This document shows, in pieces, positions 10,354 to 37,981 of a stretch of DNA of 37,981 bases; position 1 is the stretch's first letter, and the number at the start of each line of letters is the position of its first letter. Both the position numbers and the translations under genes were made by a program. Source of the stretch: Ignavibacteria bacterium (lineage in GTDB: Bacteria; Bacteroidota; Ignavibacteria; Tepidaquicellales; Tepidaquicellaceae); NCBI GenBank assembly GCA_016929695.1, contig JAFGII010000024.1, positions 1 through 37,981 of the forward strand, in the 5' to 3' direction. Below the pieces are notes generated by a model. It ran no database searches. It saw only the letters and a list, made by a program, of their open reading frames with translations, and was not told the origin of the DNA.

Positions 10354-10797
10354 CTACTTTACTTTTATTTCTTTCACTACCGGCTTTGCTTCCTCAACCT
10401 TCGGTAAGGTCACGGTTAAAATTCCGTCTTTGAAATCAGCTTCGATTCCGTCAACTTTTATTTCATTGGTAACATTGAAACTTCTGCAAAATTCACCGTA
10501 GTAAATCTCATTCATAATCAGATTAGTATCTTCAGTTTTTTGTGTCTGTCTCTTTTCACCACTTATTGAAAGAACATTGTTCTCAAGTGAGATTTTTAAA
10601 TCATCTTTGGAGATTCCGGGCATTTCCATATTAATGTAGAAATTGTCCCTGTCCTCAGTTATTCTTGTTCTCGGTGTGAAATTTGAAACATTCATTGAAT
10701 CGTCTTTCAGTGAGAAAAACGGATGATCGAAGATTGATTTGAACGTATCGTTAACGTTCCATAAATCGTTTGCTTTTTTATACCTGACTAATGACAT
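10354..10797 (-). CDS. hsp20: Small heat shock protein, Hsp20/alpha-crystallin family
   Basis: This 147-residue holdase prevents aggregation of unfolded proteins for later refolding by DnaK. The alpha-crystallin domain spans about residues 40-140, with TRITEDRDNFYINMEMPGISKDDLKI and SISGEKRQ, FCRSFNVTNEIKVDGIEADFKDGILTVTLPK, and the C-terminal I-x-V anchor (KEIKVK). It has one of the few strong ribosome binding sites here, AAGGAG 8 nt before the ATG (10806-10811). A near-perfect sigma-54 promoter lies about 45 nt upstream. dnaK follows on the same strand, so the two chaperones may be partly co-transcribed. Confidence 0.95.
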   Translation of the reverse strand: MSLVRYKKANDLWNVNDTFKSIFDHPFFSLKDDSMNVSNFTPRTRITEDRDNFYINMEMPGISKDDLKISLENNVLSISGEKRQTQKTEDTNLIMNEIYYGEFCRSFNVTNEIKVDGIEADFKDGILTVTLPKVEEAKPVVKEIKVK

Positions 10798-34631: not shown

Positions 34632-36740
34632 ATGAAATTTCTCAACATTGTATTTTTGATATCTTTGTTTTGTATCACATCCGTACATCCCCAGATGTTC
34701 TCTCCCGATGAAAGAAAAATCCTCGGAATGCAGGACAGCCGTACACTCGGCGAAAATAACGAAGTGCTGAATTACCTGAACAGCGAAAATGAAGCACTCG
34801 TAAAAAGAACATTAATTGCTCTTACCAATATTCAGGATACAGCAACCTGCGATGAAATCGGAGAACTGCTTCTGAAAAATCCTTCTGCGGAAATCAGAAA
34901 ATTATCTGCATTTTCACTCGGACAGATTCCGTCCGAAACATCGGAAATATATCTCTTAAAATCTCTGTTGACGGAATCAAATGATGATATCCTGTCGGAA
35001 GTAATAACTTCACTTGGTAAAGCAGGCAGTTCTTCCTCGCTCGATGAAGTACTGAAATTCAATAACGAAAATGAAGAAATAAAAAAAGCAAAAGCAATGG
35101 CGGTGTTTTTTTATTCGATGAGAAATATAAAAACTCAAAGCGGTGTGGATTTTTTGAAATCTCTGATTAACGGGAATTCCGCACCCGGAACACGTAAAGC
35201 GGTTGCGTATGCATTTTACCGCTTCAGGGATAGGGATTTAATGAAAAGCGCCGTTAATGAAATCGAATCGCTTGCAAAATCAGATGATGAGCATACGAGA
35301 ATGTGGGCGTTCTCTGCTCTCGGAAAGATTGCCGGTCCGCAATTTTTTGAAACACTCCTGGATTCATACGAAACAGAAAATATCTGGAATGTAAAAGTAA
35401 ATATCCTGAACTCCATCCCGGATTATATTAAAAATGATGTATCACTGCTTAATGACAGATTAACCGGAATTCTCCTTAATGCAAAAGACGATGAAAACAT
35501 AAACGTAAGAATTACCGCTCTGAAAGTTATCGGTGCCGTGTTCTCTTCGGCTGAAAAAAATCAAAAGGAAAAAATCAGAAATAAACTTGTTTCTTGTTTC
35601 GATAAAAGTATATCCGCAGACTGGAGGGAAATAGGGGAGTGCTTCCTTATTTATGGAATGATTTTCAAAGACGAATCTGAAGAACTCTTGTTCGAAAATT
35701 TTAAAGACACCGGCAGCAGAAACCTGAAACCCTATATTATAAGGGCTTTCGGGTATTTTGAAAACGGGGTGGTTTATAAAAAAGTCAGGGAAATCGTTTC
35801 TGCTCAAGTTCAGGCTTATACAAAACAAATGGGCTATGAATCAGGCAGAATGGTTCAGGATAGATACCTTGCGGAATTGTATCTCGCTTTCGTTGAAACA
35901 ATCGGCGAACTCGCTTCAAAAGTTAATGATGATGAGAGAAATCTTATACGCCTTATGCTCTCCGAATTCCTGTCGTCTAAAAATCCTGCTATCGTTGATG
36001 TTTGTCTCAATATGCTTGATAAAGATATATTCGCGAAATACCGCGATGAAACCGCATTGCTGATAATGTATGATTTTAAGGAACTCTCGTATCCGGAAGA
36101 TAAAGAGGTGATGAAACTCTTTATTAACCGGTTCGGATTATTGAAATATTCTGATGCTGTTGGCTTGCTGGAAAAGTATATTGCATTTGGTGATGACGAA
36201 CTCGCTTCTTATTCAGTAAGGGCGCTTAAGGAGATTACCGGCAAAGATTATTCATTCGAAAAATCATTGAAAACTTTCTACGACTGGGATTATGTCGAAA
36301 GTCTGGCTGGTAAAAAAAATATTCTAATCGAAACTGAAAAAGGAGATATTAAAGTAGAATTGTTTCCCGAATATACTCCGTTCACGGTGAGGAATCTTAT
36401 TTCACTAATCGAAAAGGATTTTTATGAAGGGTTATTTTTCCACAGAGTCGTTCCGAATTTTGTTATTCAGGGAGGCGACCCGCTCGGTAATGGCTGGGGA
36501 GGACTTGATTATACAATCCGTACGGAAATTTTTCCGTCGAATTTTGAAACGGGTTATGTTGGAATTGCATCGGAAGGAAAAGATACCGAAGGATGCCAGT
36601 TTTTCATTATGCACTCGCCTCACTATCATCTCGACGGGAGATATACTCTCTGCGGAAAAGTAACCGAGGGAATGGATGTCGTTAATCAAATTTATATTTA
36701 TGATAAAATTTTGTCTGTGAGTATATTATATGATAATTGA
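34632..36740 (+). CDS. HEAT-repeat protein with C-terminal cyclophilin domain
   Basis: The 702 residues start with a signal peptide (FLNIVFLISLFCITSVHPQ), so the protein is probably periplasmic or outer-membrane associated. Residues about 40-545 are armadillo/HEAT-like helical repeats (RTLIALTNIQDTATCDEIGELLLKNPSAEIRKLSAFSLGQI and similar). The C-terminus from about 553 is a cyclophilin domain: ILIETEKGDIKVELFPEYTPFTVRNL, GLFFHRVVPNFVIQGGDP with the catalytic Arg of the FHR motif, and YVGIASEGKDTEGCQFFIMHSPHYHLDGRYTLCGKVTEGMDVV. It stands alone on the plus strand, but lies beside three parvulin foldase genes. The fusion should place prolyl isomerase activity on a peptide-binding scaffold. Confidence 0.9.
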   Translation: MKFLNIVFLISLFCITSVHPQMFSPDERKILGMQDSRTLGENNEVLNYLNSENEALVKRTLIALTNIQDTATCDEIGELLLKNPSAEIRKLSAFSLGQIPSETSEIYLLKSLLTESNDDILSEVITSLGKAGSSSSLDEVLKFNNENEEIKKAKAMAVFFYSMRNIKTQSGVDFLKSLINGNSAPGTRKAVAYAFYRFRDRDLMKSAVNEIESLAKSDDEHTRMWAFSALGKIAGPQFFETLLDSYETENIWNVKVNILNSIPDYIKNDVSLLNDRLTGILLNAKDDENINVRITALKVIGAVFSSAEKNQKEKIRNKLVSCFDKSISADWREIGECFLIYGMIFKDESEELLFENFKDTGSRNLKPYIIRAFGYFENGVVYKKVREIVSAQVQAYTKQMGYESGRMVQDRYLAELYLAFVETIGELASKVNDDERNLIRLMLSEFLSSKNPAIVDVCLNMLDKDIFAKYRDETALLIMYDFKELSYPEDKEVMKLFINRFGLLKYSDAVGLLEKYIAFGDDELASYSVRALKEITGKDYSFEKSLKTFYDWDYVESLAGKKNILIETEKGDIKVELFPEYTPFTVRNLISLIEKDFYEGLFFHRVVPNFVIQGGDPLGNGWGGLDYTIRTEIFPSNFETGYVGIASEGKDTEGCQFFIMHSPHYHLDGRYTLCGKVTEGMDVVNQIYIYDKILSVSILYDN

Positions 36741-36756
36741 ATGAGAGGTATATATA

Positions 36757-36832
36757 AAAAGACAGCGAAGCGTATTTTGGGTGGGCGCTTCGCTTAACTA
36801 AGTCTTAAGTTTTATTTGTAATCTATCGTCTG
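36757..36832 (-). ncRNA. Candidate sigma-54-dependent small RNA
   Basis: A predicted start near 36832 (12 nt after the -12 GC of the sigma-54 promoter) and a terminator ending near 36757 bound about 76 nt on the minus strand. The 5' half is AU-rich and unstructured; the 3' half is a 9-bp stem with the C-rich loop CCCACCCAAAATA. No start codon with a reading frame is present. C-rich loops of this kind can pair with G-rich ribosome binding sites. That it is a stable RNA is inference from the promoter-to-terminator layout. Confidence 0.6.
36764..36794 (-). terminator. Rho-independent terminator of the small RNA candidate
   Basis: AGCGAAGCG and CGCTTCGCT form a 9-bp stem with a 13-nt loop. On the minus strand GTCTTTTTATATA follows, a good T-tract. 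On the plus strand, where it would serve the HEAT-cyclophilin gene ending at 36740, the following sequence is not T-rich, so the minus-strand role is stronger. Confidence 0.8.
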
Positions 36833-36842
36833 TATTTATATC

Positions 36843-36858
36843 TGCAAATACTGTGCCA
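36843..36858 (-). promoter_or_regulatory. Sigma-54 (-24/-12) promoter
   Basis: The minus strand reads TGGCACAGTATTTGCA. The GG at 36857-36856 and the GC at 36845-36844 are separated by exactly 10 nt, with full TGGCAC and TTGCA boxes. It resembles the hsp20 promoter at 10853-10869. Downstream is the terminated small RNA candidate; upstream is the double palindrome at 36965-37008. Confidence 0.8.
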
Positions 36859-36964
36859 TGAAAAATTTGAAAATCGATTTTTATAAAAAATCGTTGTAAG
36901 TAATTGATAATATAAGATATATTTTTATTTTTATTATTTTATTGCGTAAAATTGCCTCTTGATT

Positions 36965-37008
36965 TTGTCTCAAAATGAGACAATTTTGTCTCAAAATGAG
37001 ACAAAATT
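36965..37008. promoter_or_regulatory. Tandem palindromes, candidate enhancer (UAS) for sigma-54 activator
   Basis: TGTCTCAAAATGAGACA occurs twice in a row, at 36966-36982 and 36987-37003, a 21-bp period (two helical turns). The first copy has 8-bp arms (TTGTCTCA/TGAGACAA), the second 12-bp arms (AATTTTGTCTCA/TGAGACAAAATT) with a 3-nt spacer. Relative to a start at 36832 this is about -133 to -176, the usual distance for an enhancer-binding protein. An AT-rich stretch with an 8-bp hairpin (CGATTTTT/AAAAATCG, 36875-36893) lies between, and DNA bending there is plausible. Confidence 0.65.
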
Positions 37009-37270
37009 AGGTAAAATAATGTTTTTTCAATACCGCTAATTCTAACAAAATACTTTAATTTTCTTGTATAATTCTTATAAATATAAACATTTCCGCCTCC
37101 CAAATCCGGCATATCTGAATAATATTATTCTTCCAATCCTGCTTTCCGTATTTTGACATTTTTAACACCGAAAACGAAACCCCCGAAGCACATTTTTTCC
37201 TTACTACTTTTTTCAAAATATTGTTTCCCTTCTATTACATAACCCGGTCAAACAGGAATCCTGTCTGCTG

Positions 37271-37288
37271 ACTACGCTCCGGCGTAGT
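37271..37288. repeat. Small dispersed hairpin with TCCG loop, copy 2
   Basis: ACTACGC-TCCG-GCGTAGT is a perfect 7-bp stem with a UNCG-type loop, flanked by CTG-rich and CCGG text (37247-37260). It differs by one base from 20751-20768. Confidence 0.55.
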
Positions 37289-37310
37289 TACCAAAATTCT
37301 TTTTTAATTT

Positions 37311-37495
37311 ACTCATCCGATGAACTTGTTCATCGGATGAGTCTGAATTCCAAAAATCTGTGTAAATCTGTCTAATCTGTGTCATCAGCGTGCTGAATGC
37401 GTTGTGATGGTCAAAATTCTATGACGGTTTCCGCAGAATTTAAGAACTAAAGGATTAATTGTTTAGTGTTCTTGGGTTTTCTTTCGTGCACTAAG
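37311..37495. repeat. Dispersed repeat family, copy A (with intact hairpin)
   Basis: It begins with a perfect 15-bp hairpin (ACTCATCCGATGAAC-TT-GTTCATCGGATGAGT, 37311-37342) and continues through AATCTG-rich text to CTTTCGTGCACTAAG at 37495. Bases 37351-37495 are repeated at 37751-37895, exactly 400 bp later, with 10 mismatches in 145; the last 71 bases are identical. Confidence 0.85.
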
Positions 37496-37575
37496 TGGTA
37501 AAATAATTTCAATCCGTTTGTTTTTAACTATTGAATAAACGTTGCGTCCGTAGCGCCTTATTGGTAAATTATCCC

Positions 37576-37680
37576 TTCTATGACTAACTTCTACGACCAA
37601 CTTCTGCTTAAATTTGCGGTTATTATTTTTATTGCACATCGAATATGCTTTGCGTCTTATTCTCCTTTGCGCATTCGCGT
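37576..37680. repeat. TTCTATGACTAACTTCT and TTGCG repeat blocks
   Basis: TTCTATGACTAACTTCT at 37576-37592 is the third copy of the repeat at 24573 and 32398, immediately followed by a related ACGACCAACTTCTGC unit. At 37648-37680 TTTGCGTC...CTTTGCGC text appears again. This is a composite repeat zone between the two copies A and B, with no coding content. Confidence 0.5.
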
Positions 37681-37750
37681 GAACTTCACTCCGTTAGTAT
37701 TCTTAATTTATAACCCGGTCGAGCCGGAACCAAAGTTTTTTTAAACCTTA

Positions 37751-37895
37751 ATAAAATCTGCGAAAATCTGTCTAATCTGCGTTATCAGTGTGCTGAATGC
37801 GTTGTGATGGTCGAAATTCTATACCGGTTTCCGCAGAATTTAAGAACTAAAGGATTAATTGTTTAGTGTTCTTGGGTTTTCTTTCGTGCACTAAG
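37751..37895. repeat. Dispersed repeat family, copy B (interrupted at right edge)
   Basis: It is 93% identical to 37351-37495 (10 mismatches in 145). The left hairpin is missing. Copy A continues TGGTAAAATAATTTC after CACTAAG, while this copy continues GTGCGTCACGAAGCG, so the two diverge abruptly at 37895/37896. Confidence 0.85.
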
Positions 37896-37981
37896 GTGCG
37901 TCACGAAGCGTTCAGGTGCAAGTCAGTGAAAATCTGACATAACTAATTTGTCATTCAGTTATAAGTGACAAAGACAATCTG
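37896..37981 (+). mobile_element. Possible 5' end of a group II intron, cut by the window edge
   Basis: The sequence starting GTGCG (37896-37900) matches the group II intron 5' consensus GUGYG and begins exactly where repeat copy B departs from copy A. AGGTGCAAGTC soon after resembles domain I text of bacterial introns. The reverse transcriptase gene and domains V-VI would lie beyond the window, so this is a hypothesis; a junction of another kind of repeat is possible. Confidence 0.35.

Follow-up and report, generated by a model that had tools for sequence, protein, structure and literature searches.

The minus strand near the end of the window, the 37,981-nucleotide stretch of Ignavibacteria DNA analysed here, carries what is quite probably a stand-alone small RNA gene of a σ54 regulon, activated by the NtrC-type response regulator P0002 and most likely working by base pairing. 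As read from the DNA, the locus has its own predicted promoter, an intrinsic terminator, and no start codons (Table 1). A preliminary description had proposed an enhancer-dependent small RNA gene with a two-palindrome enhancer (UAS), and this proposal is now supported by syntenic loci in both of the other genomes of the genus that were compared, G001 (isolate SKW224) and G002 (isolate Ch128a), and by five analogous loci in a second genus.

Table 1. Features of the small RNA locus in the window, and the candidate activator and regulon genes elsewhere in the window genome (G000)
Feature	Position	Strand	Evidence or remark
Distal UAS palindrome TTGTCTCATTTTGAGACAA	36986..37004 (37004-36986)	minus	exact sequence; motif recurs 5' of σ54 promoters in relatives
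Proximal UAS palindrome TTGTCTCATTTTGAGACAA	36965..36983 (36983-36965)	minus	distance to the promoter TGG, 125 bp
σ54 promoter TGGCACAGTATTTGCA (GG-N10-GC)	36843..36858 (36858-36843)	minus	exact match; conserved in synteny in G001 and G002
Predicted small RNA, ~77 nt, no start codon	36756..36832	minus	sequence, fold, alignment with the G001 RNA
5' end with GACGA box at +3	36825..36832	minus	GACGA at +2/+3 in G001 and G002
C-rich loop CCCACCCAAAATA, possible pairing seed (putative function)	36773..36785	minus	sequence
Intrinsic terminator: 9-bp stem, 13-nt loop, GUC, U5	36756..36794	minus	base changes in the G001 and G002 stems preserve pairing
Convergent HEAT-repeat cyclophilin gene, synteny anchor	34632..36740	plus	orthologs in G001 and G002 adjoin the same promoter
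P0002, NtrC-type response regulator (receiver, AAA+, Fis-type HTH)	G000:C92:61055-62404
Regulon gene: small membrane peptide	C23
Regulon genes: single-domain response regulators	C28, C92
Regulon genes: type IX secretion-tail proteins	C60, C81, C100		promoter at C100 weak
Regulon gene: secreted protein	C92		weak trypsin and carboxypeptidase-regulatory matches
Regulon gene: unclassified secreted protein	C36

Enhancer and promoter

The enhancer consists of two perfect 19-bp palindromes of the form TTGTCTCA-TTT-TGAGACAA, repeated with a period of 21 bp. It is the only perfect tandem UAS in its own genome and the best-preserved enhancer there. Of 391 genomes of the class searched for the tandem palindrome TCTCANNNTGAGA-N6-9-TCTCANNNTGAGA, 7 contain it, with 41 sites among them, and the reversed control returned 0 in the genomes listed, which excludes chance as an explanation for the enhancer.

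In the promoter, GG-N10-GC sits at -24/-12. The exact pattern TGGCACNNNNTTTGCA occurs twice in the 2.78 Mb genome, one of the two matches being the promoter in the window; when one mismatch is allowed, there are 14 matches versus 2 for the reversed control. The genome also encodes rpoN and six clear or strong AAA+ σ54 activators. The predicted +1 lies near 36832, 12 bp past the GC of the promoter.

Another σ54-like promoter, TGGCACGATATTTGCG, is present in the window at 10868-10853 (minus strand), about 55 bp ahead of a gene at 10354-10797 (minus strand) that by eye resembles a small heat-shock protein (Hsp20). Other inverted repeats lie upstream of it, and this arrangement suggests that the heat-shock gene is under σ54 control by another activator.

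The predicted RNA and its terminator

The preliminary description had listed four elements on the minus strand: the tandem palindrome, the GG-N10-GC promoter, a promoter-to-terminator stretch lacking a reading frame, and a hairpin with a T-tract. All four are present, although the boundaries given for them were only approximate. The two DNA elements stand as described, as does the stretch without a reading frame: ATG, GTG, and TTG are all absent from the roughly 77 nt of the predicted RNA, and no peptide signal was found in its sequence. The hairpin and T-tract stand with the qualification that the terminator is slightly non-canonical, having 3 nt, GUC, between the stem and U5. The arms of its stem lie at 36794-36786 and 36772-36764, and the T-tract at 36760-36756. 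A simple terminator scanner did not list this hairpin because its loop limit is 8. The predicted RNA as a whole folds better than all of 200 shuffled sequences (z-score -3.9 to -4.0).

The only gene adjoining the RNA is the cyclophilin gene, whose stop lies about 16 bp from the T-tract. From this gene to the contig end at 37981, no open frames of at least 60 aa were found. The last part of this region, about 1 kb from 37010 to 37981, contains a hairpin, CTCATCCGATGAACAAGTTCATCGGATGAG, near 37310-37343, and is possibly a dispersed repeat.

Orthologous loci in the genus

The preliminary description had named conservation in relatives as a check on the gene, and the outcome is favorable: promoter, tandem UAS, terminator, and 5' GACGA are found in synteny in both congeners, giving syntenic orthologs of the RNA gene in 2 of the 2 other genomes of the genus. 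In G001 and G002, a tandem UAS is followed at 66-67 bp by a GG-N10-GC promoter. As in the window, these elements lie past the stop codon of the cyclophilin ortholog, at a distance of about 110 bp, and are read from the strand opposite to that gene. Both congeners have a degenerate distal palindrome, and the -24 box of the G001 promoter is weak. The G002 genome has only two composite sites, this locus being one of them. The predicted RNAs of the two congeners are 70-80 nt long, end at a terminator, and carry GACGA at +2 or +3. The terminator stem is AGCGAAG/CUUCGCU in G000 and G001 and AGCGGAG/CUCCGCU in G002, so that the bases differ and the pairing is kept.

Sequence similarity among the three RNAs is uneven. 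The alignment score of the G001 and G002 RNAs was matched by 0 of 1000 shuffles, and on this evidence the two are clearly homologous. The window RNA is only modestly similar to its orthologs in sequence: its score was matched by 4 of 1000 shuffles against the G001 RNA and by 91 of 1000 against the G002 RNA, the latter not being significant alone. Given the shared position, enhancer, promoter, and start, together with these alignments, we take the three congeneric RNAs to be orthologs. The C-rich part lies inside the terminator loop in the window RNA and before the terminator in G001 and G002. A DNA similarity search in relatives matched mainly the palindromes and not the RNA, and the orthologs were located through synteny. 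No DNA similar to the region was found in plasmids, and a GTDB scan with the cyclophilin alignment revealed no further species of the genus.

The regulon and its candidate activator

Nearly every UAS site in the relatives has a σ54 promoter, and the spacing between it and the proximal palindrome takes discrete values. These are mostly 64-68 bp, with others at 76-79, 84-86, 98, 112, and 123-125 bp. At the other sites of the window genome, a single or degenerate tandem UAS is followed by a promoter at 64-67 or 85 bp. Most of the regulon promoters serve protein genes. Judging from these genomes, the palindrome acts as the enhancer for a genuine regulon that extends through the family. The presence of secreted proteins with type IX sorting tails among its members (Table 1) indicates that the circuit probably governs the cell surface.

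Some of the protein genes in the regulon have structured leaders. In G007, three genes under the enhancer and a σ54 promoter (L019, L024, and L027) carry the DUF805 RNA (RF03081) in their 5' leaders, with scores of 83-89 bits. At L023 (G009:C48, minus strand), a long, structured-looking 5' leader, GCATTCCGGCTGATAGGAATG...TGCTTCCCCGCGACTG, lies under the enhancer, downstream of a promoter at 1448; this leader has no Rfam match at the gathering score.

The likely activator at this enhancer is P0002. Its gene follows that of a hybrid histidine kinase and is itself followed by an enhancer, a σ54 promoter, and a receiver gene; the window RNA gene is on a different contig. Orthologs with 63-77% identity are present in 10 of the 27 family genomes tested, a search that left out G042 and G043, and the next best proteins reach at most 46%. 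The genomes with orthologs include G001, G002, G006 (partial), G007, G009, G010, G021, G022, and G041. The combination of a UAS half-site with a promoter occurs on average 4.0 times per genome where an ortholog is present versus 0.47 times in the 17 family genomes without one (Mann-Whitney p=0.005). The activator gene is immediately followed by an enhancer and promoter in G000, G001, G002, G007, G010, and G021, and the orthologs keep the recognition helix SKAT(L/I/V)YRKI. These site counts, the position of the enhancer, and the kept helix make the predicted pairing of P0002 with the enhancer well supported. In all aligned P0002 orthologs, GAFTDA or GSFTDA replaces the usual GAFTGA in the σ54 contact loop.

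A second RNA in another genus

In five genomes of another genus (G009, G021, G041, G042, and G043), a tandem UAS and a σ54 promoter separated by 112-124 bp precede an RNA of 160-200 nt. A core of its own, CCCCAAAUUACCCUUUACUUAAUU, is conserved ahead of the terminator, and a model of this core (R1, genus g8) scores 79-97 bits in the five genomes versus a background of at most 41. The many matches to R1 of 30-41 bits elsewhere look like generic terminators and were set aside. In three of the five species, the RNA lies 5-10 kb from the cyclophilin ortholog.

This second RNA resembles the window RNA in its tandem UAS, its σ54 promoter, the spacing class of 112-125 bp between the proximal UAS and the promoter that is common to the window locus and the five loci, and a C-rich stretch near the terminator. 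It differs from the window RNA in being longer and in having its own core. Membership of the window RNA in the g8 family was considered and rejected, as it scores 10.7 bits (E=2) with R1 and has no match to the 3' core; given this lack of a match, common descent of the two RNAs is only possible. A broader reading, to which we give somewhat less than even weight, is that one two-component enhancer-binding protein controls, throughout the family, both surface-protein genes and a C-rich sRNA, and that the RNAs of both genera are a single fast-evolving, Qrr-like hub. In that case, the sequence of the hub would have been rewired, with enhancer, promoter, and rough location retained. Such an RNA, changing rapidly under an enhancer that stays constant, would be a test case for the rewiring of sRNA regulators.

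In G009, the 5' end of the second RNA (L026, 1632-1822, plus strand), AAAGGGGUAAU, is complementary to its own core, AUUACCCUUU, and the fold has a z-score of -7.0; pairing of the 5' end with the core could mask the seed. In the window itself, an intergenic sequence at 24802-24726 (minus strand), CCCTCCCTTTCTTTAC, is followed by a strong terminator hairpin and gives a weak match of 17.4 bits to the core of the second RNA. It is a possible further C-rich small RNA or 3' UTR.

Proposed mechanism

In the mechanism that we propose, the histidine kinase and P0002 would sense a signal, and P0002 would bind both TCTCA-NNN-TGAGA palindromes of the tandem, whose positions are about -142 and -163. The DNA would then loop, allowing the AAA+ domain of P0002 to open the σ54 polymerase complex at the promoter (Table 1), and an RNA of about 77 nt would begin near 36832 and stop at the 36794-36756 hairpin. 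This RNA would most likely base-pair through its C-rich stretch with G-rich sites, for example the ribosome binding sites of target mRNAs. The two-component system would thus couple post-transcriptional repression of some genes with transcriptional activation of surface or secreted proteins and single-domain receivers. Transcription, binding of the activator, base pairing, and targets are all predictions from the genomes.

A C-rich stretch is present in every RNA of both genera, as CCCACCC, ACCCUC, CUCUCCCUC, or CCCC..ACCCUUUAC, and its composition would fit pairing with ribosome binding sites, which are G-rich. The loop of the window RNA is itself not conserved; its orthologs and analogs carry other C-rich sequence. 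The complement of the loop, the only seed searched, is not enriched in the genome (18 matches per strand versus 32 and 36 for controls), and the search revealed no convincing site at a start codon and no target that stands out; the link between the RNA and any target is thus inferred.

Alternative explanations

The convergent cyclophilin gene suggests a different role for the transcript. The promoter would be real, and its product would be antisense to that gene or interfere with its 3' end rather than act in trans, with the hairpin serving both genes as a bidirectional terminator. The short distance between the cyclophilin stop and the T-tract fits this idea, as does the convergence of the two genes in G001 and G002. 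Yet a T-run follows the hairpin on the minus strand only, so the transcript should end before the cyclophilin gene. Moreover, the RNA that this enhancer precedes in the other genus is found 5-10 kb away from the cyclophilin gene or at another place, and overlap with that gene is thus not what is conserved. We therefore consider an antisense role unlikely. Still less probable is that a protein gene or micro-ORF, now decayed, originally stood under this enhancer and promoter, and that the short transcript is a functionless leftover. No gene lies between promoter and terminator in any of the 3 congeners, the terminator and the GACGA start have been kept, and the enhancer in the window is the best preserved of its genome; in favor of a relic, protein genes make up most of the regulon, and conservation of the RNA sequence is weak.

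Repressor operators, too, typically have perfect inverted repeats, and the spacing of 125 bp exceeds the usual 66. The palindromes might then belong to a different regulator, such as a repressor dimer, next to a σ54 motif that is there by coincidence. We find this very hard to credit, given that several genomes contain, in all, dozens of sites where the tandem palindrome stands at a fixed distance before a σ54 promoter, and that the distribution of the palindrome tracks a single enhancer-binding protein. A small RNA gene under P0002 and σ54 accordingly remains our preferred reading. On this reading, sequence from an uncultured lineage spells out a complete circuit with a predicted sensor, activator, enhancer, promoter, sRNA, and protein regulon.

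Comparison with known systems

The closest parallel is found in the Qrr sRNAs of the Vibrionaceae, which are activated by LuxO and, in Vibrio fischeri, also by SypG, the activator of Qrr1 (PMC10162802). As predicted for the window RNA, these sRNAs are under σ54 and an NtrC-type response regulator, and Pqrr1 has two upstream sites. The SypG site in V. fischeri, reported as TTCTCANNNTGMDWN (PMC10162802), is nearly the same motif as the palindrome in the window, a likeness that concerns the site alone and may be convergent. The window RNA differs from Qrr in its phylum, its gene neighborhood, its length of about 77 nt, its one strong hairpin, and its lack of an Rfam match.

In the CbrA/CbrB system, CrcZ and CrcY are sRNAs made from an RpoN promoter with a two-component enhancer-binding activator (PMC6292655), a combination similar to that predicted here. 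Unlike the window RNA, CrcZ adjoins the gene for its activator, cbrB. CrcZ antagonizes Hfq-Crc, and nothing at the window locus suggests a decoy of this kind or matches it in Rfam. GlmY and NrsZ are likewise two-component, σ54 controlled sRNAs, and such control is predicted for the window RNA too, which differs in its phylum and, again, in having no Rfam match. GlmY has been described as a σ54 sRNA (PMC7073468).

Assignment of the window RNA to Qrr, CrcZ, GlmY, or another Rfam family was rejected, since all matches were chance matches below the gathering score; Rfam scans of the locus and the window detected no RNA family except tRNA elsewhere in the window. A literature search for Ignavibacteria together with σ54 found nothing, and one for RpoN-dependent sRNA found enterobacterial work only. 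As far as the literature searched shows, this kind of gene is known; what is new is the RNA with its enhancer, its regulon, and the lineage in which it occurs. To our knowledge, the σ54 controlled sRNAs described so far (Qrr, CrcZ, GlmY, and NrsZ) come mainly from Proteobacteria, and the window locus would thus extend a rare regulatory design to another phylum.
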